From the IMG/VR virus record IMGVR_UViG_3300025652_000715, positions 1 through 20,457 of that record: a stretch of 20,457 bases of DNA. The stretch is one strand, 5' to 3'. A program made the position numbers and the translations under genes. Below are positions 116 to 12,259 of this stretch, one piece after another. This DNA is from a virus. The notes beneath the pieces were generated by a model that saw only the letters and a program-made list of their open reading frames with translations, had not been told where the DNA came from and searched no databases. The first letter of the stretch is position 1. Every line of letters starts with the position of its first letter.

Positions 116-133
116 TGCGTCTCTTTTCTTTTT
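106..133 (+). terminator. Rho-independent terminator
   Basis: A 7-bp stem (GAGGCGC 106-112 with GCGTCTC 117-123, one G-T wobble) closes a TGAT tetraloop and is followed by TTTTCTTTTT. The loop contains the stop codon of the preceding gene. The T-tract runs directly into the late promoter octamer at 133, so one unit ends where the next begins. Confidence 0.7.
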
Positions 134-140
134 ATAAATA
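133..140 (+). promoter_or_regulatory. T4-type late promoter
   Basis: A perfect TATAAATA octamer, the T4 late-promoter consensus recognised by gp55-programmed RNA polymerase. It lies 32 bp before the start codon at 172 in a short AT-rich gap just after a terminator. With T4-like spacing, transcription would begin near 146. Confidence 0.75.
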
Positions 141-171: not shown

Positions 172-1206
172 ATGATTAGATTTAAGCGGTACTTGTCAGA
201 AGCAACTCTTGCGGGCAAGTCAACTAACGGTACTCCAAATGCAATGAAGTATGTTGTTGACAATCCTAAAGCCATGGAGATAGAGTATGAAATTGAAAAA
301 GGCAAAAAGAATGTACCTGTCTTTGAATTAACTTCAGCGGGTACCGCCGGCTCTCCCATTCGTACAATTGAAGCTGGTCAAAAGTTCAAACTTAGATCAA
401 AAAAACTGATTAGCTTGGATGAGTATTATCCATCTAACAGAAATCCTTTTGGTTTAGACACTGAACTGGGAGTTATACCCATTAGCTTCGTTCGTAAGCC
501 TTCAGGCTTTAAAGCTATGGATGCTGAAATTATTGCTACCAATTCTCTTGATACTGAAATCAAAAAAGCTGTAAGTGAGAATGATGGTAAAGGTATCACA
601 GTCAAGATAGGTAAGTTTACAATCAAAGATGTTGTCGCTGCAGGATCAGATCACATCAAAGGTGATCCCAAGGCAGATATCGCACTCATGGATTCTAGAG
701 GTAAAGAAGTAGGATTTATATCGCATAAAAAAGAGGGTGGTGCTAAAGGATTCTCACAATATGGTGGTATCTCTATGTCTTCTGGATTAAAGCATAAAGA
801 GATTGAATCGTTTATAAAAGCTATAGAAGACCACTATAACGGAGAGTCCGTCAAATCTGGCGATGCATTCTTTAGACTACTCAAAGACCCAAAACTAATC
901 AATGCATCTATCTATGGTCCAGAATACGGTGGTAGTTTTGGCAGAGAAAACGTCCATTGCATTGGTCAAGGTAATCCCCTTTTGACTAAAAATAGAAATG
1001 TTTGGGAACTCGAATTTTCTGAAACTATGCATGTCAATGGCGATTATCGTTTTGCGACTAATGGTAAATTTACTGCAGTCTTCGGTGCCACTTATAGATC
1101 GGGTCGTAAAATAAGATCGGCTTCAGGTAATGAAGTCAGAAATATTCGTGCAGCAATATATCCTATAGCGTATATGGAAACGAGAAAGAAGTTAAAGGAA
1201 CTGTAA
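172..1206 (+). CDS. Capsid-tag-bearing phage protein, possible nuclease-like core
   Basis: 344 residues with no family I can name surely. The N-terminus, MIRFKRYLSEA, resembles the T4 internal-protein capsid-targeting sequence and holds a possible prohead-protease site (LSE before Ala11). Around residues 164-199 is a highly patterned segment: GDPKADIAL, a turn (DSRGKEV), then GFISHKKEGG and a Gly/Gln-rich FSQYGG. An Asp on one strand followed by a Lys on the next (D169, K186) recalls PD-(D/E)XK nuclease cores, but the usual acidic residue before xK is replaced (SHK), so this is weak. The rest is mixed alpha/beta without membrane segments. The start has a GGAAAG ribosome site and a perfect late promoter upstream. 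Its TAA shares one base with the next ATG (TAATG), implying coupled translation. Product named by tag and context, function inferred only. Confidence 0.85.
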   Translation: MIRFKRYLSEATLAGKSTNGTPNAMKYVVDNPKAMEIEYEIEKGKKNVPVFELTSAGTAGSPIRTIEAGQKFKLRSKKLISLDEYYPSNRNPFGLDTELGVIPISFVRKPSGFKAMDAEIIATNSLDTEIKKAVSENDGKGITVKIGKFTIKDVVAAGSDHIKGDPKADIALMDSRGKEVGFISHKKEGGAKGFSQYGGISMSSGLKHKEIESFIKAIEDHYNGESVKSGDAFFRLLKDPKLINASIYGPEYGGSFGRENVHCIGQGNPLLTKNRNVWELEFSETMHVNGDYRFATNGKFTAVFGATYRSGRKIRSASGNEVRNIRAAIYPIAYMETRKKLKEL

Positions 1207-2435
1207 TGTTAAAATTTTCATCGTTTCTAGCAGAAGAGAAGAATACTCATATGGAACACCTTGAGGATGCTATCCTCAACGCAGGTGTAAATGGCGCGAG
1301 ACAGGCAATCAACCATCTAAGAGCATTGCGTGATATGCTTGCAGGTAACACTAATGCTCCCGTGAACGTGACAATTAAGTGGGACGGCGCGCCGGCGGTG
1401 TTTGCTGGAACTGATCCTAGTGATGGTAAGTTCTTTGTCGCAAAGAAAGGTATCTTCAATAAGAATCCTAAAATATATAAATCAAACTCTGATATAGATG
1501 ATGACACCTCAGGTGATTTGAATACAAAATTGAAGCTGGCACTAAAGCACTTGCCAGCACTTGGCATTAAAGGAGTAGTTCAAGGTGATTTCTTATATTC
1601 GCGGGAGGATATCAAGGACATTGATATTGACGGAGAACCGCATATTACTTTCCATCCTAATACGATTGTTTATGCGATACCAAAGAAAAGCGAACTCGCA
1701 AAAACAATACTTAAATCCAGAATCGGAGTGGTTTGGCACACTACGTACCGAGGAGACTCTTTTGAAACAATGTCTGCTAGTTTTGGAGAGGAGATTGCAA
1801 GCGGTCTCAAAAAAACTTCAGAAGTCTGGTCGTTAGACGCAACGTACAGAGATTTGTCAGGTTCAGCTACAATGACGAAAGCTGAAACAAAAGCGGTGAC
1901 AGATATTCTTTCAAATGCAGGTAGACTATTCAGAAAGCTAGATCGAAAAGTTCTTGACGGTATATCGGACGATCCAGAAAGACTAATGCGAACAAAGGTT
2001 TTTGTCAATAGTAAAATTCGTGAAGGTCAGCGCATCGGAAATCCTAAGAAATTTGTCGATGATCTTGTCAAGTACATCAACGATTACTATGGTAAAGAAG
2101 AATCCAAGCGTACATCTGAAAAAGGTAAAATCACTCAGCGTCAGAAAAACGAAACTGTGCTCGAATACTTCAACAGAGTTGACAAGCGCGAGATTGTCAA
2201 GATGTTTGAGATGTACAATCTACTGATAGACGCTAAGTTGATTATCATAAAAAAACTTGACAAGGCAAAACAGATCGACACGCTATTGCTTACACCTAAC
2301 GGATACAAAGTAACAGGTCAAGAAGGATTTGTTGCAATCGATCACACGGGAAAGAACGCAATAAAACTTGTTGACAGATTGCAATTCTCACACGCAAATT
2401 TCTCATCAGATATTATCAAGGGTTGGGATAAGTAA
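1206..2435 (+). CDS. Ligase-superfamily-like nucleotidyltransferase with capsid tag (DUF6267-like)
   Basis: 409 residues. I recognise the family (DUF6267-like) from marine T4-like phages, where it is usually unannotated. The sequence TIKWDGAPAVF puts a KxDG box at residues 58-61, the adenylylated-lysine motif I of DNA/RNA ligases and capping enzymes. Further boxes are in order: GVVQGDFLY (123-131, motif III-like), EGFVAI (373-378, motif IV-like) and AIKLVD (385-390, motif V-like). The spacing between III and IV is much longer than in ordinary ligases, so a helical insertion (about 200-350) must be assumed. The N-terminus MLKFSSFLAEE carries the same tag seen on other proteins here, close to T4 internal-protein leaders. 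Coupled to the preceding gene by TAATG. Catalytic activity and substrate are inference; it could be a non-catalytic relative. Confidence 0.85.
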   Translation: MLKFSSFLAEEKNTHMEHLEDAILNAGVNGARQAINHLRALRDMLAGNTNAPVNVTIKWDGAPAVFAGTDPSDGKFFVAKKGIFNKNPKIYKSNSDIDDDTSGDLNTKLKLALKHLPALGIKGVVQGDFLYSREDIKDIDIDGEPHITFHPNTIVYAIPKKSELAKTILKSRIGVVWHTTYRGDSFETMSASFGEEIASGLKKTSEVWSLDATYRDLSGSATMTKAETKAVTDILSNAGRLFRKLDRKVLDGISDDPERLMRTKVFVNSKIREGQRIGNPKKFVDDLVKYINDYYGKEESKRTSEKGKITQRQKNETVLEYFNRVDKREIVKMFEMYNLLIDAKLIIIKKLDKAKQIDTLLLTPNGYKVTGQEGFVAIDHTGKNAIKLVDRLQFSHANFSSDIIKGWDK

Positions 2436-2438
2436 TTA

Positions 2439-2446
2439 CATAAATA
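2439..2446 (+). promoter_or_regulatory. Possible degenerate late promoter
   Basis: CATAAATA, one mismatch from the late consensus, lies 31 bp before the start at 2478, the same distance as for the perfect octamer at 133. Position supports it; the mismatch at the first base and AT-rich surroundings weaken it. Confidence 0.4.
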
Positions 2447-2477
2447 GCAGAAACATGTTATATATTAAGGTAGACAT

Positions 2478-3203
2478 ATGAGCAAGTATTATCCAGTAGA
2501 AGACACATTCTTGAACGCCTCTCGTGGTTTGATTAAGGGTGGTTCAGTAAGAAACATTTTCGGCAAAGCACTTGGTACAGGCTCAATTGTGACTGCTGAA
2601 TATAGAACGCCATGGGAACTCGCCAGTAACTACGCTTTTCCTACAGCGGCGTCTGTAATGAGTATTGTGAGTACAAGCGAAACAGATGACTCACAAATAC
2701 TAGTCTCTGGATTGGATATTAACTTTGAGCCAGTATCACAAGTCGTTACTCTAACTGGGTTGACTCCAGTTATCACTACAGTAGAATTTTATCGCATCAA
2801 CGATCTTGTTGAACTCAGCGATAATTTGGCAGGAGATGTGACTGCTTCTGCTGGTGGTACAGTTTATGGTAAAATAATTTCTGGAACTGGTAAGATGCAG
2901 TCTGCACACTATACTGTACCTGCAGGACATTGTTTCTATCTATATCGTATCGACGCCTTTGCAACGGATTCGAATGGTGGTAAAGCTGCTTTCTTTAGAA
3001 ACTATGTTGGTAACAACACGGCAAATACTATATTCAGAGTTGCTGAAACACAGTTCTTCAACAACATGAATATCGTAAGACGATTCCCATTCAAATATGA
3101 TCAAAAGTCTGACATTAAATTGCAATTGAAATCTTCTTCGGGTTCAATTGACGGTTCTATTTTTGCTGAAGGATTGCTTTTAGCTGAGCCACTAGGCGGC
3201 TGA
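2478..3203 (+). CDS. Probable virion-associated protein, unknown role
   Basis: 241 residues, rich in Ser, Thr, Gly and Val with alternating hydrophobic residues, suggesting a mostly beta fold. There is no signal peptide, membrane helix, catalytic motif or capsid tag. Starts MSKYYPVEDTF; the middle (about 120-150) has a Gly/Ala/Thr-rich turn region, and the part after residue 165 is more charged. I recall related proteins of unknown function from T4-like marine phages but cannot name one. It stands alone as a transcription unit, with a degenerate late promoter before it, an AAGG ribosome site about 9 bp before ATG, and a strong 12-bp-stem terminator 32 bp after the stop. Being singly transcribed late fits a high-copy structural or decoration protein, which is inference only. 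Confidence 0.8.
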   Translation: MSKYYPVEDTFLNASRGLIKGGSVRNIFGKALGTGSIVTAEYRTPWELASNYAFPTAASVMSIVSTSETDDSQILVSGLDINFEPVSQVVTLTGLTPVITTVEFYRINDLVELSDNLAGDVTASAGGTVYGKIISGTGKMQSAHYTVPAGHCFYLYRIDAFATDSNGGKAAFFRNYVGNNTANTIFRVAETQFFNNMNIVRRFPFKYDQKSDIKLQLKSSSGSIDGSIFAEGLLLAEPLGG

Positions 3204-3234
3204 TATTTTGTCACATGTGCGTATTACGCATAAC

Positions 3235-3272
3235 GGGGTTGAGAGTTTAACAAGACTCTCGACCCCTTTTTT
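3235..3272 (+). terminator. Strong rho-independent terminator
   Basis: A 12-bp stem (GGGGTTGAGAGT 3235-3246 with ACTCTCGACCCC 3255-3266, one T-G wobble) around an 8-base loop, followed by six Ts. It ends the single-gene unit at 2478-3203 and stands 13 bp before the next late promoter. Confidence 0.9.
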
Positions 3273-3284
3273 CTGCACCTGCAT

Positions 3285-3292
3285 TATAAATA
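3285..3292 (+). promoter_or_regulatory. T4-type late promoter
   Basis: A perfect TATAAATA, located just after a strong terminator and 47 bp before the DUF1127 gene. The expected start of transcription is near 3298. A clear AGGAGAA ribosome site follows before the ATG at 3340. Confidence 0.75.
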
Positions 3293-3339
3293 TGCGTATG
3301 AGCAAAGGCTCAATTACACAACACATACAGGAGAAATAA

Positions 3340-3573
3340 ATGTCACATGCAATGATATATGCAAAGGGCATTCTAGCAGAGTGTATAATATCACTCGTGG
3401 AATTGATCGACGACATTAAGCTATCACACAAACACAGAAAAGATGTTAATAGAACAATCTCAGAATTGAGCAAGCTTACAGACAGAGAACTTGCTGATTT
3501 AGGCATGAATCGTGGAATGATTCGACAGGTTGCAGAAGGTACAGTTAATTGCGAAGGTCGTATTGCGAAATGA
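3340..3573 (+). CDS. DUF1127-type small protein
   Basis: 77 residues. The C-terminal half contains LSKLTDRELADLGMNRG followed by a basic helix, the hallmark of DUF1127 (YjiS-like), a domain abundant as short proteins in alphaproteobacteria. In bacteria some members act in RNA-related regulation and phosphate or arginine metabolism; others are uncharacterised. Here it has an unusual 35-residue N-terminal extension that is hydrophobic (MIYAKGILAECIISLVELI) and may associate with membrane or form a helix bundle. An AGGAGAA site 6 bp before ATG and a perfect late promoter upstream imply late expression. The stop overlaps the next start (ATGA). A host-derived regulator captured by the phage is the simplest reading; its effect on the host is unknown. 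Confidence 0.88.
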   Translation: MSHAMIYAKGILAECIISLVELIDDIKLSHKHRKDVNRTISELSKLTDRELADLGMNRGMIRQVAEGTVNCEGRIAK

Positions 3574-3722
3574 ACATTCTTTCAAAATTATTAAATAGAT
3601 TTATGAGAGCATTCGAAATAGCTGGGTATCTTAGGGCAGGTAACGTTATGCGACAGTATGGTCTAGACGAACACGCAAAAAGTTGCTTTACTATGGCTAA
3701 CGAGCTAAGAGCGAAAAAATAA
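3570..3722 (+). CDS. 50-residue basic small protein coupled to DUF1127 gene
   Basis: A 50-codon frame begins with the ATG that overlaps the DUF1127 stop (ATGA) and ends with TAA at 3720-3722. The protein begins MNILSKLLNRFMRAFEIAGY and ends LRAKK: short, basic, two likely helices. It resembles in style the tiny DUF1127/YjiS-like proteins that occur in tandem in alphaproteobacteria, but lacks the DRELxDIG box, so I do not assign the family. Translation is probably coupled, as no separate ribosome site is visible. The terminator at 3750-3775 closes both genes as a bicistronic late unit. The overlap, ORF length filling the gap, and the following terminator are the case for a real gene. Confidence 0.7.
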   Translation: MNILSKLLNRFMRAFEIAGYLRAGNVMRQYGLDEHAKSCFTMANELRAKK

Positions 3723-3724
3723 TA

Positions 3725-3743
3725 AATAGACTTGAGGTCTATT
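3725..3743 (+). other. Perfect inverted repeat overlapping an AATAAATA element
   Basis: AATAGAC (3725-3731) and GTCTATT (3737-3743) form a perfect 7-bp stem with a TTGAG loop, directly after the stop at 3722 and 6 bp before the true terminator. It overlaps AATAAATA (3721-3728), one mismatch from the late promoter octamer. It could protect the 3' end, be a protein-binding dyad, or be chance in an AT-rich gap. Confidence 0.45.
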
Positions 3744-3749
3744 AATCAC

Positions 3750-3775
3750 AAAGGCGGGCTTCGGCGCGCCTTTTT
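3750..3775 (+). terminator. Rho-independent terminator with UUCG tetraloop
   Basis: AAAGGCG (3750-3756) pairs with CGCCTTT (3767-3773), then a G-G mismatch and two GC pairs close a TTCG tetraloop (3760-3763). The stem runs into five Ts. It ends the DUF1127 unit and separates it from the methyltransferase gene. Confidence 0.88.
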
Positions 3776-3823
3776 CTGTTTAGAGACTATAACTTTAGTA
3801 ACGATCTAATATGGAATATAGTA

Positions 3824-4462
3824 ATGACCACGCATAAAGAACTTACATCATACAGAGAATGTGGACACGAAGGTGTCGATGAACTTCTTTGGGTTACCAC
3901 AGATACAGGCGCTTTTGGTCACGAAAATGATGGACCTCTTAGAGACTGGATAAAAGGTAAAGACAACATATTAGAACATGCTGAAAAATTTGACACTGTT
4001 GTTCAGGCTGGCGGAAACTGTGGAATGTACGCTAGATTTTACAAGAATTATTTTAAAGAAGTCTATACATTCGAACCCGATGAACTTAACTACTACTGCT
4101 TAGACGCAAATTGTCAGGGAGAAGATTTTCATAAGTTTCTAGGTGGACTCGGAAACACTAGAGAGAAGTTTTCACTAAAAGCTGGTAGTGAGACTAATGT
4201 TGGAACGCATAAAATTGTTGAATCCGCTGGGGATGTACAGATGTACATGTTAGATGACATGAACCTAAACCATTGTGATTTAATTCACTATGACTTAGAA
4301 GGTTATGAAGAAACTGCACTTAAAGGATCGATAGAAACTATAAAAAGATTTAAGCCTGTTATCGTGGTAGAAAGACTTAGTGGAAGCGATTTACTAGAAA
4401 ATCTGGGCTATAAAGAACACGGTAGAACTTTCATGGACCACATCTATATTTACAATGCATAA
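3824..4462 (+). CDS. FkbM-family SAM-dependent methyltransferase
   Basis: 212 residues. A Rossmann-type SAM site is visible: VVQAGGNCGMYARF (59-72, glycine loop) followed by an acidic strand end FEPD (83-86). The FkbM signature appears as IHYDLEGYEETALKGS (154-169). FkbM enzymes O-methylate sugars or other small groups; in phages they are linked to glycan or lipopolysaccharide modification, substrate unknown. The start has only a weak GGA site, and no good promoter is visible after the terminator 49 bp upstream, so its expression is unclear. Its last 8 bases overlap the next gene, a sulfotransferase-like enzyme, so the two probably act on the same surface or virion glycan. Both look AT-richer and less phage-core than neighbours, consistent with recent acquisition. 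Confidence 0.88.
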   Translation: MTTHKELTSYRECGHEGVDELLWVTTDTGAFGHENDGPLRDWIKGKDNILEHAEKFDTVVQAGGNCGMYARFYKNYFKEVYTFEPDELNYYCLDANCQGEDFHKFLGGLGNTREKFSLKAGSETNVGTHKIVESAGDVQMYMLDDMNLNHCDLIHYDLEGYEETALKGSIETIKRFKPVIVVERLSGSDLLENLGYKEHGRTFMDHIYIYNA

Positions 4463-5096
4463 TTTTTATATATTCGGTCTACAGAGATCAGGCACAAATT
4501 TTATCGAAACCATAATGCAAAAAAATTTCGAGTGTAAGAAAGGTAACAATGCTACTGTTTGGAAGCACTCAATAGATGTGCCATTAGAATATGACGAATC
4601 TTTAAAGACAATCGTGATACACAAAAATCCATATACTTGGGTTGAGTCTATAGCATATAGAACCAGCATTGATTGGATCGATACGCAGACAACATATGAT
4701 CCATTAGAGTATTCAAAATTCTGTACGATAGGTAAGAAGAGAAAGTTTAATGTTATAAATCTATGCAAAACTTACAAGCACTTTCATGACACATGGTTAC
4801 CTCGGGCTGATATGATTATAAGATATGAAGATTTGCTCATACCAGAGAAACGCGATAATATCATATCTCGTATACATACAGACTTGCATATACCAAAGAA
4901 ATATGTTGTAGATAATACATGGGAAATACCTGAAAAGGGCACAATATCGCTATCAAGAAAATATGACGATTCGCGTGAACAATACTACATAAAAGGTCAA
5001 CCAGAACACTTGAATGATCGTATAGTATTCGCCATCAATCACACTGTAACACCCGAATTGATACGAGATATGGGATATAATGTCTTAGGTCAATAG
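4455..5096 (+). CDS. Sulfotransferase-like protein
   Basis: 213 residues. The N-terminal FGLQRSGTNFIETIM (7-21) matches the phosphosulfate-binding loop (5'-PSB) of PAPS-dependent sulfotransferases, which resembles a P-loop. HKNPYTWVESI (56-66) matches the 3'-phosphate-binding region, and IRYEDLL (122-128) is the typical RYEDL box. These give good support for the sulfotransferase fold; the acceptor is unknown. ATG lies inside the methyltransferase frame (8-base overlap), so translation is likely coupled. Together the pair would methylate and sulfate a carbohydrate, possibly host surface sugar after infection or a phage glycan. The unit is flanked by the terminator at 3750 and the late promoter at 5100, as an inserted cassette would be. 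Confidence 0.8.
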   Translation: MHNFYIFGLQRSGTNFIETIMQKNFECKKGNNATVWKHSIDVPLEYDESLKTIVIHKNPYTWVESIAYRTSIDWIDTQTTYDPLEYSKFCTIGKKRKFNVINLCKTYKHFHDTWLPRADMIIRYEDLLIPEKRDNIISRIHTDLHIPKKYVVDNTWEIPEKGTISLSRKYDDSREQYYIKGQPEHLNDRIVFAINHTVTPELIRDMGYNVLGQ

Positions 5097-5099
5097 ATG

Positions 5100-5107
5100 T
5101 ATAAATA
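5100..5107 (+). promoter_or_regulatory. T4-type late promoter
   Basis: A perfect TATAAATA just after the stop at 5096 and 54 bp before the start at 5162. It would drive the long run of virion and cargo genes that extends to the terminator at 12274. Expected transcription start near 5113. Confidence 0.78.
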
Positions 5108-5113
5108 ACACGT

Positions 5114-5143
5114 ATCACAGTGAGTCTACGGAAAACCTGTGAT
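5114..5143 (+). promoter_or_regulatory. 5'-leader hairpin
   Basis: ATCACAG (5114-5120) and CTGTGAT (5137-5143) are perfect complements around a 16-base loop. The stem would sit at the very 5' end of the late transcript and leaves the AGGAG ribosome site (5151-5155) free. A role in transcript stability is possible; this is inference. Confidence 0.4.
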
Positions 5144-5161
5144 GGAAAATAGGAGAACAAA

Positions 5162-7576
5162 ATGTCAGACGATGTTGAAAAGAAGGCTGAAAAAAAGCCA
5201 TCGAAAAAAGATGAAAAGATTATCAAAAACACTATCGAAGTGAATCCTACGTTAAAAGAGCAAACTGAAAAGACAGTTGTGTTAGGATGGGGTCGTATGA
5301 ACCCAGTGACAGTTGGTCACGAAAAACTCGCAAACAAGATCAAGTCTGTTGCAAAGAAAAGCAACGCAACTCCTTTGATCTATCTCACACATTCCCATGA
5401 TCCGAAGAAAAACCCTTTGAAGTATGACGATAAGGTCACTCTTGCTAAGAAAGCATTCGGTCGTGATGTTGTACAAAAGTCCAAATCAAAAACAATCATT
5501 CAAGTAATGCAAGAACTAGATGGTAAGTATGACAATGTTATCGTTGTCGTGGGTCAAGATCGCATTGCAGAATTCGAAAAGCTTCTCACAAAATATAATG
5601 GTAAAGATTACACATTCGATAGCATCAAAATTGTATCAGCAGGTGATAGGGATCCAGATGCAGAAGGTGTCGAAGGTATGTCCGCATCAAAGATGAGAGC
5701 CGCGGCAGCGTCAGGTAAAAAGGATGACTTTATGTCAGGTCTACCAAAGGCTCTTCAGCGCGACGGAGAAAAGGTATATGATATGGTTCGTTCTGGTATG
5801 AATATTAACGAAGAAGTCGATCTTGAAGAAGATCGTGAACCTATGACACGCACACAACGCCGCAATATGGCTATCGCAATGCGCCGTAATAAATCAAAGA
5901 TTGCAGCAGGTCGTCGTAGAGCCGCAAATCGTAAGCCTACACCTGAGAAGATTAAGATACGCGCTAATAAGCGCGCCCGCGATATCATCAAGAAGAAAGT
6001 CATTGGCAAATCTGGAATGTCGTATGACGAACTAAGCGATTCGCAAAAGCAAATGATAGACAAAAAAGTGATGAAGCGTCAGGCTGCCATAAAGCGTCTT
6101 GCAAAAAAACTCATTCCAAAAATTAGATCAGAAGAACTTGATATTAACGCAGCGTTTACTCTCAATGAAGATTTTGAAACTTTGGTTGAACGTAAGACAC
6201 CACAAGATGACAATATCAAAGACATGGAAGGCACACAGCCTAAAAAGTATTATAGCGGTGTGAAGAAATCTGAAAAAGATGATCGCGCTCGTCACTTTGC
6301 TAAGGGTGCAAAAATGGACGATGATAATCCAGCTGCATACAAGCCAGCACCAGGTGATGAAGATGCTGAGACAAAACCATCTAAGCATACCAAGAAGTAT
6401 AAAGAGATGTTTGACGAAGCCTCAGAAAATGATGTTAAACCTAGAAAGCGATATCACAATCTACTAAACTCTAACGGTACACCTAAAATTGATATGCGTT
6501 TCAAAGCGTTTCGTGCAAAGAAGCCTATGACTGAAGAGTTTGAAAATGACACGCAAGTTATCAATCTTATCGACAATATCTGGGAATCAGTTGAACTTGA
6601 AGAAAGCAAGACAGATGCCGCACTTCAGAAGAAGGCTGACAAGACTGAAATCTCAAAAAGCATTCTAAAGAATGTTTATGATAGAGGTGTTGCAGCATGG
6701 CGCACTGGTCATAGACCTGGTACTACCCCAGCGCAATGGGGTATGGCGAGAGTAAATAGTTTTGTCACAAAGGGCAAAGGTACATGGGGCAAAGCTGATT
6801 CTGATCTGGCTGCAAAAGTTCGTAGTGAAGAAGTTGAACTAGACTCATTCTTTGACTTGAACGAACAGCTTGAACTTACTGAAGCGTCAATTCTCGACAA
6901 AGCACTTGCTGCAGTACATAAGCACGTTCTCGGTGGAACTGAACTTGGGGACATTGCATATCAAGTATCTCGTGCGCGTGGCGTAGACATGTCTGGTCGT
7001 GAACTTGAAAAGGCGTATGTAAGCAAATACGGCAAACCTGATACAGATAAAAAAGTTAATCCAGAATTACGTGCAAGACTCATGAAGAAATATAGCGTCA
7101 AGGAAGAGCATGGCGCAGGCGACGAAGGAACTGACAAGCTTACTAAGAAGTATAAGAAAGATACTCCTGGTGAAGATATGAACGAATCTTTTGACTCGTT
7201 GATGGAAGCCGAATGTCAGCTAATTGGCATGAAACAAATCAAACAGTTTGAAAAAGTTGTTGATGAACTGTTCAAGAAGTTTGATATTGACTTCAACTTT
7301 ACAAAGCACTTCGGTGAACGTATGAGTGATGGCAGAAACACTCCTTGTATCACACTCAAAGAGTTGGCTGCATTTATCAAGAAGATTTACGCAAAGCAAG
7401 GTAAATCGATCAAAGGCGTTGCTGGCGCAGAAGCTGTCATCAAAGACATCCAAAGTGACTTGAATATTCCTGTTGCTGTTACTTACGACACGAAAAACGA
7501 TGAATTCGATGTTGTCATGAAAACTATCATGCGCAAGAAGAACTTCAAGAGTCCAGATAAAGTGATTACATACTAA
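5162..7576 (+). CDS. Mosaic virion protein with N-terminal nucleotidyltransferase domain
   Basis: 804 residues in several modules. Residues 38-205 are a cytidylyl/adenylyltransferase-like (HIGH superfamily) domain: GWGRMNPVTVGH gives the TxGH box (50-53) and GMSASKMR (172-179) the C-terminal ISSTxxR-like box, as in NMN or phosphopantetheine adenylyltransferases. Residues 226-325 are a very basic helical segment. Residues 501-554 contain VYDRGVAAWRTGHRPG and WGMARVNSF, a conserved marine-phage domain (I believe DUF5824). Residues 705-804 form another small domain (KHFGERMSDGRN, TIMRKKNF). Linkers carry prohead-protease-like sites: LTE/A 572-575, LME/A 680-683, with looser LEE/D and LNE/D. Strong AGGAG site and late promoter. 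I read it as an internal or scaffold-like virion protein cut during maturation; enzyme substrate unknown. Confidence 0.85.
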   Translation: MSDDVEKKAEKKPSKKDEKIIKNTIEVNPTLKEQTEKTVVLGWGRMNPVTVGHEKLANKIKSVAKKSNATPLIYLTHSHDPKKNPLKYDDKVTLAKKAFGRDVVQKSKSKTIIQVMQELDGKYDNVIVVVGQDRIAEFEKLLTKYNGKDYTFDSIKIVSAGDRDPDAEGVEGMSASKMRAAAASGKKDDFMSGLPKALQRDGEKVYDMVRSGMNINEEVDLEEDREPMTRTQRRNMAIAMRRNKSKIAAGRRRAANRKPTPEKIKIRANKRARDIIKKKVIGKSGMSYDELSDSQKQMIDKKVMKRQAAIKRLAKKLIPKIRSEELDINAAFTLNEDFETLVERKTPQDDNIKDMEGTQPKKYYSGVKKSEKDDRARHFAKGAKMDDDNPAAYKPAPGDEDAETKPSKHTKKYKEMFDEASENDVKPRKRYHNLLNSNGTPKIDMRFKAFRAKKPMTEEFENDTQVINLIDNIWESVELEESKTDAALQKKADKTEISKSILKNVYDRGVAAWRTGHRPGTTPAQWGMARVNSFVTKGKGTWGKADSDLAAKVRSEEVELDSFFDLNEQLELTEASILDKALAAVHKHVLGGTELGDIAYQVSRARGVDMSGRELEKAYVSKYGKPDTDKKVNPELRARLMKKYSVKEEHGAGDEGTDKLTKKYKKDTPGEDMNESFDSLMEAECQLIGMKQIKQFEKVVDELFKKFDIDFNFTKHFGERMSDGRNTPCITLKELAAFIKKIYAKQGKSIKGVAGAEAVIKDIQSDLNIPVAVTYDTKNDEFDVVMKTIMRKKNFKSPDKVITY

Positions 7577-8022
7577 TGATACGCTTTAAACATTATATCA
7601 GCGAGTTGCATATATGGCAACCAACTAAAGCTCAAACTAAAGGCATCGCACGTGGTGACATGCCTCAAGTGAGAACATCCGACTACGAAGAATTGATAGA
7701 ATTTCTTCGCACTAAGGACATAAAACTAAAGAAGATGAAAGTGAAAGCTAGTGCATTGAAAGCTACGCAGCGCAACTTTAATGTTGATAAAATTACAAGT
7801 GCTGCTCAGAACTATTCAACGCTACACAAGGCTAAACCAATCATCGTAAGTTCAGATAATTATATTATCGATGGGCATCATAGATGGTTAGGTGCTGTGA
7901 ATGTTGGTGGCGATATCGACATATATAAAGCAAACGTGAACGTCAATGAACTTCTAGACGCAGTTAAAGAATTCCCGAAATCATTCACAAAAAATATTAA
8001 TGAGGAAACCAATGACATTTAA
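7576..8022 (+). CDS. ParB-like domain protein with capsid tag
   Basis: 148 residues. KPIIVSSDNYIIDGHHRW (87-104) is the characteristic box of the ParB N-terminal/sulfiredoxin-like fold (PI.VS.D.YIIDGHHR), whose members bind or hydrolyse nucleotides (CTP in ParB, or DNA in ParB-like nucleases). A preceding segment, KASALKATQRNF (57-68), fits the fold's first half. The N-terminus MIRFKHYISEL is nearly identical to that of the gene at 172 (MIRFKRYLSEA) and ends in a possible prohead-protease site (ISE before Leu11), suggesting packaging into the capsid. No helix-turn-helix DNA-binding domain follows, so a plasmid-partition role is unlikely. Start shares one base with the preceding stop (TAATG). 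Activity not predictable from sequence alone. Confidence 0.85.
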   Translation: MIRFKHYISELHIWQPTKAQTKGIARGDMPQVRTSDYEELIEFLRTKDIKLKKMKVKASALKATQRNFNVDKITSAAQNYSTLHKAKPIIVSSDNYIIDGHHRWLGAVNVGGDIDIYKANVNVNELLDAVKEFPKSFTKNINEETNDI

Positions 8023-8464
8023 ATTATCAAAAAGATCGCTAAACAAACTCGAAGGCGTGAAGCCAGAACTTATCAGAGTTGTAAATCGTGCAATTGAACT
8101 TTCAAGCGTAGACTTTGGTGTTATACAGGGTATGAGAACAGTCGAAGAGCAAAGACAACTTGTTGCTAAAGGTGCTTCACAGACGATGAAATCTAAGCAT
8201 TTGACAGGTGATGCAGTCGATCTTATGGCATACATCGGATCACGTGGATCGTGGGAACTTAATCTATACGACAACATCGCAGACGCTATGAAAGCTGCTG
8301 CTTTGGAAGAGGATGTGAAGATTCGCTGGGGTGCAGCATGGCAGATTTCTGACATCCGTGATTGGGATGGTACGATGCAAGACGCTATGGATGCATACAT
8401 TGATCTTCGCCGTTCGCAGGGTAGACGCCCGTTCATCGACGGTCCACATTTCGAATTGAACTGA
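8012..8464 (+). CDS. Endolysin, L-alanyl-D-glutamate peptidase type (M15)
   Basis: 150 residues from the ATG at 8012. SKHLTGDAVDL (61-71) is the SxHxxGxAxD zinc motif of M15 peptidases (zinc ligands H63 and D70), and GPHFEL (144-149) supplies the third ligand H146. IRWGAAW (104-110) and GMRTVEEQ (40-47) also match phage M15 endolysins such as the T5 enzyme, which cut the L-Ala-D-Glu bond of peptidoglycan stem peptides. No signal peptide or transmembrane arrest signal is present, so release from the cytoplasm would need a holin. An earlier in-frame ATG at 8000 would add four residues, but GAGGAAA (8002-8008) is well placed for 8012. Overlaps the ParB-like gene end by 11 bases. It sits among capsid-tagged genes yet lacks the tag. 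Confidence 0.92.
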   Translation: MTFKLSKRSLNKLEGVKPELIRVVNRAIELSSVDFGVIQGMRTVEEQRQLVAKGASQTMKSKHLTGDAVDLMAYIGSRGSWELNLYDNIADAMKAAALEEDVKIRWGAAWQISDIRDWDGTMQDAMDAYIDLRRSQGRRPFIDGPHFELN

Positions 8465-8465
8465 T

Positions 8466-8759
8466 ATGAAGTCTTTTAGTTCTTATATCAGTGAAGGTGT
8501 TATGCTACAGTTCATACGTGGCAAAGATCAAGATGTTCTAAAGATGTGGGACACTAAAGAAAAAAGCTGGGTAGAACTTCGTGGTAAAAAGGGGTTCGAG
8601 ACTACCTACGATGCAAAAGATCCTCTACACAGGGCGATTACTGCACTTGGCAAGTCTGCTAACATATCGGATTTTATGAATGGCGATGTTGTCAACATAA
8701 ATCCAAATCACCCAGACGCGAAGAAAGCTTTGAAGACAATACAGGGACTAATGAAGTGA
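8466..8759 (+). CDS. Small capsid-tag-bearing protein, unknown function
   Basis: 97 residues. The N-terminus MKSFSSYISEG closely parallels the T4 internal-protein leader (MKTYQEFIAEA) and the other tags in this window, with a possible cleavage site ISE before Gly11. The remainder is a small alpha/beta domain with a basic-polar stretch (WVELRGKKGFETTYD) and a C-terminal helix ending KTIQGLMK. No known motif is visible. It starts two bases after the endolysin stop and its TGA overlaps the next start (GTGA). Most likely a packaged internal protein of about 9 kDa after trimming; that role is inferred from the tag. Confidence 0.82.
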   Translation: MKSFSSYISEGVMLQFIRGKDQDVLKMWDTKEKSWVELRGKKGFETTYDAKDPLHRAITALGKSANISDFMNGDVVNINPNHPDAKKALKTIQGLMK

Positions 8760-9310
8760 AGACACTTAAAAAGCACATATACGAATCGACTGTAAAGGAA
8801 GGCGTAGATTATCACGTCAAAAATGAAATACCGTTATCGGAATGCGTGTTTCGTCCTCACTCAGAATGTTTCTACGAATTCTTTGTTGAAGCGCGAAAGC
8901 AATTCAACGAAGGTAAGCTAGACCTCTATAGTAAGTTTGACATCGACATGATGGGAACCGATATTGGCGAAAGAGCGATTTATGAAGATGAGATTGTTCC
9001 ACTTGACATACCGTTGATGGAATCAGAATACAACGGAAAAGATGTTGAATTAAATCAGCCAAAACGTGGTGGTAAAAAGAAGTATTACGTGTATGTCAAG
9101 AATGATAAGGGTAATGTAATTAAAGTACAGTTCGGTGACACGACAGGATTGACAGCTAAGATTGATGATGTTAAGGCGAGAAAATCTTTTGCGGCTCGCC
9201 ATAACTGTGATCAAAAGACTGATAAGACAAAGGCTGGTTATTGGGCATGTCGTTTACCTTACTATGCAAAACAACTTGGACTTTCAGGTGGTGGAAACTT
9301 TTTCTGGTAG
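8756..9310 (+). CDS. Capsid-tag-bearing protein with C-terminal DUF5872-like domain
   Basis: 184 residues starting with GTG, chosen because it overlaps the upstream stop (GTGA) and yields MKTLKKHIYES, the same tag pattern seen on neighbours. Residues 15-88 form a helical domain with several acidic residues. A second possible prohead-protease site, LME before Ser90, divides it from residues 105-184, a highly conserved basic module (KKKYYVYVKNDKGN; FAARHNCDQ; GYWACRLPYYAKQLG) that I know from marine T4-like phages and believe is DUF5872. Two cysteines and a histidine (H149, C151, C165) could bind a metal. Function unknown. Maturation cleavage would free the C-terminal basic domain as a DNA-associated peptide; that is inference. 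Confidence 0.85.
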   Translation: MKTLKKHIYESTVKEGVDYHVKNEIPLSECVFRPHSECFYEFFVEARKQFNEGKLDLYSKFDIDMMGTDIGERAIYEDEIVPLDIPLMESEYNGKDVELNQPKRGGKKKYYVYVKNDKGNVIKVQFGDTTGLTAKIDDVKARKSFAARHNCDQKTDKTKAGYWACRLPYYAKQLGLSGGGNFFW

Positions 9311-9588: not shown

Positions 9589-11256
9589 ATGACTAATAAG
9601 TTATCTGCATCTTTCATCAAGGCTTTCGGTGAAAAAACTGCTCAGTTAAACCCAAAGGCAGTAGTCAATGAGGAAACTAGTAGAACCATTATCGAACGTA
9701 AAATCTCGGAACTATCTTCCAAGATCAATGCAGCACGTATTGGTGGTACAGGTCACATTGGCAAACTGACTGAAGAGAAAGCACTTCTACAGCATCAGCT
9801 TGCATCACTGAATGAGACCTCTAAGATTGAACGTATTAGTGAAGCTATGGATCCAGTTAATCCAAAAGCAGTGAAAAAGAAGTTTGATGATCGTAAAGAC
9901 AAAGACATTGACAATGATGGTGATGTTGATTCCTCTGACGAATATCTACACAAGCGCCGTAAAGCTATCTCAAAAGCTATGAAGAAAGAAGAAGTTGAAC
10001 TTGATGAAGTTTCAAACGCAGTTAAAGATCAGTTGGGCAACATCGACCTATCAATCCGCGATTGGGAAAGACGTTGGAAAAATAAGAGTGCTGGTAATCC
10101 AAATGACATGAAGGCACCTCAGAAAATCCAGGATCTGAAAGCGCAAAAGGCTGCGCTCATGAAAAAACATGGTATCAAAGAAGCTGTAGACCTAGACGAG
10201 GCTGGTCCAAAGATGAAGCCAGACTTCGTGAAGACTCAGCGAGCAAAAGATGCTGCGCACAACGCTGCAATGGGTCGCACTGCTACAGGTCGTAAGAAGC
10301 CAGTTCGTACAATGACTTCCACCCAAAGATCAATGGCTTCTATGAAGAAAGAAGAACTTGAGCTTGATGAAAAGGTCAACGAAAAAGCAATCAAAAAAGC
10401 TGTTGATGACGGTAAGTCTATGGACGTTATTGTCGGCATGTTTGCTAACAAGCGCACGACAAACACAGATGAAATTCGTCAAGTTGTGAAAGACTACATG
10501 TGGAATAAGCGCATGAAGAAAGAAGAAGTTGAAAATCTTAAAGAATTGACTGCTTTCGAAAAGAAACTGATTAACCAAATGTATGATAAGAAAGGCAACC
10601 TAACACCAATTGGTAAGAAGGTGATGGATGCTGGACAAAAGAAAGAAGAAGTTGAAAATCTTAAAGAATTGACTGCCAAACAACGCGCTCTTGCAAAGGC
10701 TGATGATGAAGCTAAATCAAAGGACAAAGTTTCATTGAAGAAAGCACCTTGGGATACAAAAGAAGAAGTTGCTGAATCAGTTGGTCTAACGCAGACACTC
10801 ATAGAAAAAGCTCTTTCAAAGAAACAACAGATGGCAGCAGGTGCGGCACTCGCAGCAAAGCGTGGAGATGCAGATCCTTCTGAACTCGTTGGCGCATCAA
10901 AAGAGATGTACGATAGTATGTCAGAGAAAGACCTAGAAGACTTTGCCAAGACGAAGCATAAAGGTCTTCCTATGAAGAAAGAAGAAGTCGAACTTGATGA
11001 AGCCTACACAATCAATCACAAGACTTTCTCTGCAGCCGTTCAACATGCGAAAGCACAAGTAGAAAAGCAAGGCTACACTATCGATGATGACGAATGGGAT
11101 CGTAAAGTTGCGATGGGTCCAAAGAAGCCTGGTACAGGTAAGACCAATCGTTACACAATCGAATTGATGAAAAACGGAAAGCCTACTAAGCGTATGCTTC
11201 AAATGCAAGTTTACTACGATGAAGGTCGTTACGAACTTAACATGTATGTATCGTAA
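9589..11256 (+). CDS. Repeat polyprotein-like virion protein with KKEEVELDE linkers
   Basis: 555 residues, mostly basic helical segments separated by about seven copies of an acidic linker: MKKEEVELDE (131-140), KEAVDLDEA (197-205), MKKEELELDE (252-261), MKKEEVENLKEL (309-320), KKEEVENLKEL (351-361), KEEVAESV (391-398) and MKKEEVELDEA (462-472). Many end in hydrophobic-x-Glu, the T4 gp21 prohead-protease pattern; ISE/A (83-86), LDE/A (202-205) and LDE/A (469-472) fit best. Residues 107-118 (DIDNDGDVDSSD) form an EF-hand/dockerin-type calcium loop. Residues 473-555 are a separate alpha/beta domain. AAGGA site 9 bp before ATG. I infer a head-internal precursor cut into several peptides, like T4 gp22 and the internal proteins. 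Related repeat proteins occur in marine T4-like phages without known function. Confidence 0.85.
   Translation: MTNKLSASFIKAFGEKTAQLNPKAVVNEETSRTIIERKISELSSKINAARIGGTGHIGKLTEEKALLQHQLASLNETSKIERISEAMDPVNPKAVKKKFDDRKDKDIDNDGDVDSSDEYLHKRRKAISKAMKKEEVELDEVSNAVKDQLGNIDLSIRDWERRWKNKSAGNPNDMKAPQKIQDLKAQKAALMKKHGIKEAVDLDEAGPKMKPDFVKTQRAKDAAHNAAMGRTATGRKKPVRTMTSTQRSMASMKKEELELDEKVNEKAIKKAVDDGKSMDVIVGMFANKRTTNTDEIRQVVKDYMWNKRMKKEEVENLKELTAFEKKLINQMYDKKGNLTPIGKKVMDAGQKKEEVENLKELTAKQRALAKADDEAKSKDKVSLKKAPWDTKEEVAESVGLTQTLIEKALSKKQQMAAGAALAAKRGDADPSELVGASKEMYDSMSEKDLEDFAKTKHKGLPMKKEEVELDEAYTINHKTFSAAVQHAKAQVEKQGYTIDDDEWDRKVAMGPKKPGTGKTNRYTIELMKNGKPTKRMLQMQVYYDEGRYELNMYVS
10516..10676 (+). repeat. Two identical 38-bp direct repeats within the repeat protein gene
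   Basis: 10516-10553 and 10639-10676 are identical over 38 bases and encode the same linker (KKEEVENLKELT). They are 123 bp apart (41 codons, in frame). Base identity, not only amino acid similarity, indicates a recent duplication or gene conversion of one linker-plus-segment unit. Further linker copies near 9979, 10341 and 10974 are related but diverged. Confidence 0.9.
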
Positions 11257-11515: not shown

Positions 11516-12259
11516 ATGGCACTTTGGGGTAATAAAGATACCAAAGCTGTAACTGGTACGGTTGCAGTCACTGAAACGGACACTGCAGTAACAGGTACAG
11601 CAACAGACTTTGTAACAGAACTTGCTTCAGGACAAACTCTTGTGATCGCATCTGTTCCGTATAAAATCGCGGCTGTTGCTAACACAACATCAATCGAACT
11701 TGAGACAGCGTATGCTGGTACCACGGCAAGCGGTCTTACCGTAACTGCCAATGAATCGCCTGCATATGTTCCACACGCAGATAAGCCAGAAGTATATGGT
11801 GTAGATGCAGTAGAAGCTGCAGAGCTACCAGAACTCACACACGCTGGTTGGGTGAAGAGAACTGTTGGTACAGGTGGTCGTGCAGGACGCGTGACATATG
11901 AAACACTTGTTGCGATGGGTTCAATCTCTGGTGACGCAGAAGACACAGTATTTGTTGACGCGACAATCACAATTGGAACACAGCCAGTAGCAGCTAGTGT
12001 AACAGCACCAGATGCAACATCATTCACAGTAACAGCAACTGCAACACAAAGCGCAGTTATCGCTTACGCATGGCAAGTTTCTGATGACGCAGGTGTTACA
12101 TGGGTATCAGCAACTGGTGGAGTATATTCTGGCGAAAATACAGACACACTTGCAATCTCAGACTCAACTGGTCTAGATACATACCTATATCGTTGCGTGT
12201 TGACAGCAACTGGTGCAGCTACAGTCACATCTGACGAAGCTGAGCTTACAGTAGCATAA
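11516..12259 (+). CDS. Virion structural protein with C-terminal Ig-like domain
   Basis: 247 residues. The N-terminal half starts MALWGNKDTK and contains the conserved THAGWVKRTVGTGGRAGRV (108-126) and YETLVAMG, a family I recall in structural-gene regions of T4-like marine phages. From about residue 150 to the end is an Ig-like/PKD-type beta sandwich: ITIGTQPVA, the core AYAWQVSDDAGVTW (183-196) and YLYRCVLTATG (223-233), with the typical Trp and Y-x-C pair. Such domains decorate phage virions and may hold carbohydrates loosely. Strong AGGAGAG ribosome site. A terminator follows 15 bp after the stop. Composition is very rich in Thr, Ala and Val, as usual for beta-rich surface proteins. Exact location (head, neck or tail) is not clear. 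Confidence 0.85.
   Translation: MALWGNKDTKAVTGTVAVTETDTAVTGTATDFVTELASGQTLVIASVPYKIAAVANTTSIELETAYAGTTASGLTVTANESPAYVPHADKPEVYGVDAVEAAELPELTHAGWVKRTVGTGGRAGRVTYETLVAMGSISGDAEDTVFVDATITIGTQPVAASVTAPDATSFTVTATATQSAVIAYAWQVSDDAGVTWVSATGGVYSGENTDTLAISDSTGLDTYLYRCVLTATGAATVTSDEAELTVA

Follow-up and report, generated by a model that had tools for sequence, protein, structure and literature searches.

A shared N-terminal leader

The 20,457-base virus record IMGVR_UViG_3300025652_000715 of IMG/VR, the whole of which is termed the window here, is a fragment of an uncultured T4-like phage, and it raises the question of why five of its open reading frames (ORFs) should have a leader of some ten residues in common at their very start. 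An earlier inspection of the letters (the sequence-only reading) had noted that the T4 internal-protein leader MKTYQEFIAEA is cut after the Glu, and T4 IpII and IpIII indeed read MKTYQEFIAE/A, where the slash marks the cleavage. The shared ten-residue N-terminus is very probably a capsid-targeting sequence (CTS) of the T4 internal-protein type, carried by cargo of the phage head. We infer that the five window proteins are packaged, cleaved after residue 10 and injected.

In T4 IpIII, residues 4 and 7 have been assigned to targeting and residues 8 and 10 to processing, with gp21 having the specificity L/I-x-E (PMC9026906). In order to avoid circularity, a T4-defined motif (aromatic residues at 4 and 7, Leu or Ile at 8, Glu at 10) was drawn only from T4 IpII/IpIII and the published mutagenesis, and a second, window-derived motif was used for the count of families and for the N-termini of the cyanophage S-CREM2. 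The five ORFs and their N-termini have been confirmed as first described:

172..201, + strand, leader MIRFKRYLSE (ORF 172-1206, beginning MIRFKRYLSEA), fits the T4-defined motif
1206..1235, + strand, leader MLKFSSFLAE (ORF 1206-2435, beginning MLKFSSFLAEE), fits the T4-defined motif
7576..7605, + strand, leader MIRFKHYISE (ORF 7576-8022, beginning MIRFKHYISEL), fits the T4-defined motif
8466..8495, + strand, leader MKSFSSYISE (ORF 8466-8759, beginning MKSFSSYISEG), fits the T4-defined motif
8756..8785, + strand, weaker leader MKTLKKHIYE (ORF 8756-9310, GTG start, beginning MKTLKKHIYES), misses the T4-defined motif

The five proteins are otherwise unalike, as had been claimed, with the downstream sequences falling in different families. 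Aromatic residues are found at positions 4 and 7 in the leaders of ORFs 172, 1206, 7576 and 8466, while ORF 8756 has Leu4 and His7; homologues of the latter begin MKTFKQHMEA and MMKFEQYVDV, so the targeting half is kept. Leu or Ile at position 8 and Glu at position 10, which constitute the gp21 site, occur in all five leaders. The T4-defined motif fits 4 of the 28 called window genes.

Conservation of the leader in related phages

Across the window and 80 related loci, the T4-defined motif fits 127 of 1,389 genes, whereas the controls gave 1 fit among 10,653 internal start codons and 20 among 230,060 internal residues. A version of the motif written for DNA yields 45 hits across 18 relatives, and the reversed pattern yields no hit; a few of the 45 are not gene starts, such as one within the S-CREM2 nrdA gene. 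A stricter DNA pattern applied to the whole of IMG/VR found at least 120 stretches, versus 9 for the reversed pattern. Among the matches listed, 122 of the 128 examined start an ORF of at least 50 amino acids (67 clusters), and T4-like genes occur on 108 of 119 loci with the leader pattern compared to 2 of 9 control loci. As a positive control, a pattern tuned to T4 recovers both ipII and ipIII from the T4 genome and picks up gp61.1 as well.

The leader is conserved independently of the domains that follow it, which the sequence-only reading had put forward as a check. The window-derived motif is found on at least 35 protein families in the 81 loci, and in 81 homologues of the ORF 1206 product, which belong to the family DUF6267, the relative entropy reaches 3.3, 3.0, 2.5 and 3.8 bits at positions 4, 7, 8 and 10, with 1.0-1.6 bits at positions 2, 3, 5, 6 and 9. 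These high-information positions coincide exactly with the targeting positions (4, 7) and the processing positions (8, 10) established by the T4 mutagenesis. Further tagged proteins were found in dozens of families in related aquatic phages. With high probability, the T4-type capsid-targeting leader is used far beyond the T-even phages.

Similar starts could in principle arise by chance, or persist as a functionless relic of 5'-end recombination between neighbouring genes. Homologues lacking the leader exist for several leader-bearing families, from which it follows that leader and domain are separable units, and the presence of homologues both with and without it makes spread of the leader by recombination plausible. 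Such an origin without function is nevertheless extremely improbable, given leader rates hundreds of times above the internal controls, strong position-specific conservation and the ratio of at least 120 to 9 matches in IMG/VR. Chance similarity was ruled out by the internal-start, internal-residue and reversed-pattern controls.

The leader could also direct proteins to a different place, for instance the tail, the outside of the capsid or the host membrane, or it could act at the DNA level as a signal for translation start, and virion mass spectrometry is a method that cannot separate the head interior from other sites on the virion. In the DNA-pattern matches, however, synonymous codons differ freely at conserved leader residues, which indicates selection on the amino acids and by which a nucleotide-level signal was ruled out. 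The leader also matches specifically the T4 CTS positions and the gp21 L/I-x-E site, and it is charged, with none of the hydrophobic stretch of a membrane signal. Any of these other addresses is therefore considered very unlikely.

Prohead protease and late promoter motifs

Members of the gp21 family (PF03420) are encoded by all six complete relatives searched and by 6 of 12 IMG/VR contigs, several of which are fragments. The major capsid protein propeptides of relatives end LLTE/A or LLME/T, consistent with cleavage at L/I-x-E. The sequence TATAAATA, the T4 late promoter motif, is located at two positions in the window:

133..140, + strand, TATAAATA, T4-type late promoter motif 31 bp before ORF 172, the first cargo gene
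5100..5107, + strand, TATAAATA, T4-type late promoter motif 54 bp before the ORF 5162 operon

In related loci the motif shows a strong strand bias, with 226 sense and 13 antisense occurrences, and it lies upstream of 43 of 154 leader genes versus 139 of 1,107 others (p = 2e-6). Since late promoter motifs precede them and are enriched before leader genes, the cargo genes look late-expressed even though they lie among replication genes.

Leader-bearing proteins in the virions of relatives

The virion proteome of S-CREM2 comprises 52 of its 219 proteins (PMC10665884 Table 3). When the N-termini of all 219 proteins were rebuilt, six were found to carry the window-derived motif, five of which are in the virion (p = 0.003), namely the S-adenosylmethionine (SAM) hydrolase gp6, gp13, the kinase gp14, gp136 and the cytidylyltransferase gp154; of those with the T4-defined motif, 3/3 are virion proteins (p = 0.013). 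The cytidylyltransferase of S-SZBM1, whose leader is one residue shorter (MRFRQFIIEA), has been detected in virions, and with S-CREM2 and S-SZBM1 pooled the leader remains correlated with virion detection (p = 0.007). The syntenic interval of S-SCSM1 holds seven annotated virion proteins, including an NMNAT with the leader MKSFLQFLKEA. Work cited in PMC10665884 reports that the virions of S-CRM01 contain kinases, and the S-CRM01 kinase begins MISFDQFLSEK. A cytidylyltransferase has also been detected in S-SM1 virions (PMC3037559). The leaderless DUF6267 homologues S-SZBM1_141 and S-CREM2 gp87 are undetected in the published virion proteomes.

Several observations weigh against the capsid-targeting reading. 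The 55-residue leader protein gp175 of S-CREM2 was not detected in virions. Among the 30 proteins detected in S-SZBM1, neither of the strict-leader proteins 191 and 192 is present, so this phage alone gives the correlation no support. In S-SCSM1, one of two leader proteins has a virion annotation; the other, S-SCSM1_30, has none. In two of the virion studies the authors state that contamination cannot be excluded. The DNA pattern has no match in phiM12 or HTVC008M, both of which encode gp21, and in many cases the residue predicted at P1' is Glu or Asp, unlike the Ala following the T4 IpII/IpIII sites. The search for a gp21-like protease that had been suggested gave a divided result, with no protease gene on the 20-kb window fragment and one in each of the six complete relatives searched. 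The earlier claim that one label marks capsid-loaded cargo is well supported at its core; the virion counts are 5/6 in S-CREM2, 0/2 in S-SZBM1 and 1/2 in S-SCSM1, and likely cargo exists that does not carry the label.

The undetected proteins S-SZBM1 191 and 192 and S-SCSM1 30 lie near terminase genes. This would suit an explanation in which the leader targets the prohead, but its bearers are core or scaffold factors that assist head building or genome packaging and are perhaps expelled or degraded, not injected; T4 core proteins are likewise gp21 substrates with LxE sites. On the other hand, leader enzymes have been detected in mature virions, and many leader proteins resemble enzymes acting on cellular targets or nucleotides (SpoT-like HD, Zeta/AAA_33 kinase, adenylate kinase, RNA-ligase-like and RNA 2'-phosphotransferase-like), not scaffolds. 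Such a role in assembly is thus regarded as unlikely, and carriage of the leader proteins as injected head cargo is preferred.

Proteins carrying the leader

The products of the five leader ORFs are as follows:

172..1206, + strand, 344-residue leader-bearing protein, phrog_13937 (function unassigned)
1206..2435, + strand, DUF6267 protein (PF19782, 1.1e-112; 377.6 bits against a curated cut-off of 27)
7576..8022, + strand, ParB-like domain protein of 148 residues (phrog_8071 ParB-like, 1.4e-5; phrog_2859, 6.8e-28)
8466..8759, + strand, 97-residue protein, function unassigned, with the leader on 4/4 family members
8756..9310, + strand, 184-residue protein, function unassigned, whose C-terminal domain is fused to cytidylyltransferase ends in relatives

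The ORF 172 family has E119, PK166-167, D169, SHK184-186 and Q196 as invariants. With E119, D169 and K186 invariant, and with structural elements in an order that suits the alpha-beta-beta-beta fold of PD-(D/E)xK nucleases, the protein is possibly a PD-(D/E)xK-like nuclease; this is a lead drawn from sequence and from a structure model of moderate confidence (predicted local distance difference test 69.7), for which a fold search gave no significant match.

The leader is present on 72 of 81 members of the DUF6267 family. ORF 1206 has KWDG and EG(F)V motifs, as found in covalent nucleotidyltransferases, with K58, D60, G61, E373, G374 and K387 invariant. Its structure model, from an alignment built with the window and IMG/VR loci only, is good overall (predicted template modelling score 0.81), and residues 1-15 have low confidence, as would be expected of a removable leader. 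The "ligase-like" label once given to this protein is drawn from its KxDG/EG motifs: the profile had no significant sequence match in the PDB, and the fold search yielded only weak, non-significant hits, including the RNA ligase 8ucf at E about 1. The description of ORF 7576 as ParB-like agrees with its phrog_8071 match, and 5/5 members of its close family carry the leader. The ORF 8756 domain recurs at residues 657-824 of the product of a cytidylyltransferase gene in the related locus L056, with 58% identity.

In relatives, the leader is borne by HD_4/SpoT-like hydrolases, Zeta-toxin/AAA_33-type kinases, adenylate kinases, methyltransferase-like and cytidylyltransferase-like proteins, as well as a lytic transglycosylase-type double-psi barrel protein. 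Proteins 15 and 27 of phage Melnitz and the DUF6267 protein of phage DLP6 have the leader too. Weaker assignments comprise polynucleotide-kinase-like (weak), RNA 2'-phosphotransferase-like (weak) and RNA-ligase-like proteins (below the Pfam cut-off). It is about as likely as not that in aquatic T4-like phages the leader is a general, swappable label for injected enzymes that make up a large and rapidly changing set (SpoT-like alarmone hydrolases, kinases, RNA-ligase-/phosphotransferase-like and NMNAT-like proteins, possible nucleases), accompanied by leaderless LxE polyproteins that are cut into cargo domains.

Leader-bearing SpoT/HD_4-like proteins, candidate injected alarmone hydrolases, are encoded by the IMG/VR loci L035, L126 and L153.

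Proteins of the locus without a full leader

Four further genes lie among or beside the leader genes:

2478..3203, + strand, leaderless protein, homologue of the virion-detected S-CREM2 gp176 (E = 2.5e-9; PMC10665884 Table 3)
5162..7576, + strand, cytidylyltransferase/NMNAT-like protein with a long LxE-containing tail and the virion-detected homologues S-CREM2 gp154, S-SZBM1_140 and S-SCSM1_91
8000-8464, M15 peptidase-like endolysin with no leader, between the ParB-like ORF and ORF 8466
9589..11256, + strand, 555-residue leaderless protein with repeated (K)KEEVELDE-type linkers, a candidate gp21-cut polyprotein

The leader is likely not the sole route into the head, with some probable cargo of the locus lacking it. 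The ORF 5162 product has no N-terminal leader and keeps only the cleavage half, NPTLKE/Q, at residues 28-34. Its close homologues have a split leader, KGFKEFDPSKYIDTEPTIEEA, which resembles T4 IpI (MKTFKEF...TITE/A), and its homologues are those of the locus most often seen in virions.

ORF 9589 contains 13 LxE/IxE sites, compared to a mean of 5.5 in shuffled sequences (p = 0.0025). DUF3008 occupies residues 408-464, between LIE(406) and LDE(471), and this module forms a separate 69-residue virion protein in S-SCSM1; parts of ORF 9589 also match the virion proteins S-SCSM1_92 and S-SCSM1_93. The LxE linkers flanking a domain that is itself a lone S-SCSM1 virion protein suggest a putative polyprotein cut by the prohead protease. 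The EEVDLDEA linker of ORF 9589 also appears in a gene near the prohead protease of a relative (L098 2322-3440), which places such linkers in a head gene cluster.

In S-CREM2 gp12 (OR473000 7704-10313) and S-CRM01_128 (L104 16388-16939), a short N-terminal extension of the type 'RW..W..G' is followed by the leader-like sequences LRFASFMAEA and LSLDSFIKEA, respectively. Of the two, gp12, which carries a Cas9-like annotation, belongs to the S-CREM2 virion proteome. A wrongly annotated start of gp12 was considered and dropped, as S-CRM01_128 has the same kind of extension.

Proposed course of packaging and comparison with known systems

According to the proposed mechanism, leader-bearing proteins would be made late in infection from T4-type late promoters, and leader residues 4 and 7 would bind the prohead core, by which the proteins would become enclosed in the prohead. 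A protease of the gp21 family would cut after Glu10 (L/I-x-E/) and so release the cargo within the head, and the cargo presumably enters the next host cell together with the DNA. The window locus would be a cargo locus, in which leader-bearing proteins are accompanied by likely virion proteins that lack a complete leader; of these, the products of ORFs 5162 and 9589 are probably taken in as proteins of the core type, with cleavage at the LxE linkers inside them.

A leader common to unrelated internal proteins is already known in T-even phages, where T4 Ip1-3 have only the leader in common (PMC12373910). The leaders of T4 IpI, IpII and IpIII share with those of the window their ten-residue length, N-terminal place, aromatic residues at 4 and 7, Leu or Ile at 8 and Glu at 10, on otherwise dissimilar proteins. 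In contrast, some of the window cargo consists of larger proteins that resemble enzymes (DUF6267, ParB-like, possible nuclease), encoded beside a primase gene in a phage group distant from the T-even phages, and position 4 is mostly Phe and not Tyr. T4 Alt and the ejection proteins of phiKZ-like phages (SPN3US, phiKZ) are also carried in the head and trimmed after Glu by a gp21-family protease, but the phiKZ-like propeptides have S/A-x-E sites, and no short common address label is described for them in the text consulted (PMC9026906).

The virion enzymes of S-CREM2, S-CRM01, S-SCSM1 and S-SZBM1 (kinases, NMNAT/cytidylyltransferase, SAM hydrolase) are homologous or syntenic to the proteins discussed here, and several bear the leader; the virion studies, in the portions consulted, do not mention it and leave open whether these enzymes are real virion components. 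A literature search, which mostly covered journals outside subscription, found no paper that describes the leader for cyanophages or for further T4-like phages of marine origin. What is new is how widely the leader occurs among aquatic T4-like phages, the enzymes that bear it, the link to unexplained cyanophage virion enzymes and the leaderless LxE-linker forms.

The ten-residue signature predicts from sequence alone which proteins of T4-like phages likely travel in the head. It offers a reason for the kinases, NMNAT-like enzymes and SAM hydrolase in cyanophage virions, which the studies that found them were unable to distinguish from contamination. T4 Ip1-3 have turned out to be injected host-takeover or counter-defence proteins, and many unannotated phage genes become testable candidates for proteins that are injected and act in such roles in the first minutes of infection.

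Genomic setting of the proposed cargo locus

The cargo locus lies directly upstream of a primase gene, which is followed by genes reading as dihydrofolate reductase, thymidylate synthase and ribonucleotide reductase. Through DUF6267, the nearest annotated relatives are Stenotrophomonas phage DLP6, phage C48C1, Methylophilales phage Melnitz, Pelagibacter phage HTVC008M and many cyanophages. Counterpart genes are located between helicase and primase in DLP6, HTVC008M, Melnitz, S-SZBM1, S-CRM01 and S-SCSM1. In T4 this interval holds gp61.1, which adjoins the primase gene and likewise begins with a leader of this kind, MKTFKEFIKEA; it differs in being a 54-residue hypothetical protein, for which no similarity to the window cargo has been shown. 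The gene of this protein with its capsid-targeting-like leader is at AF158101 18966-19130 (L235).

Between the two cargo operons, at 3824-5096, an FkbM-type methyltransferase (PF05050) and a sulfotransferase-looking protein are inserted. Near the cargo locus, an 82-residue ORF at 11266-11514 matches through its C-terminal half the PHROG 'prohead protease inhibitor' (phrog_8608, E = 2.8e-6), and the protein encoded at 11516-12259 resembles a PHROG 'head protein' as well as the virion-detected S-SZBM1_136 and S-SCSM1_95.

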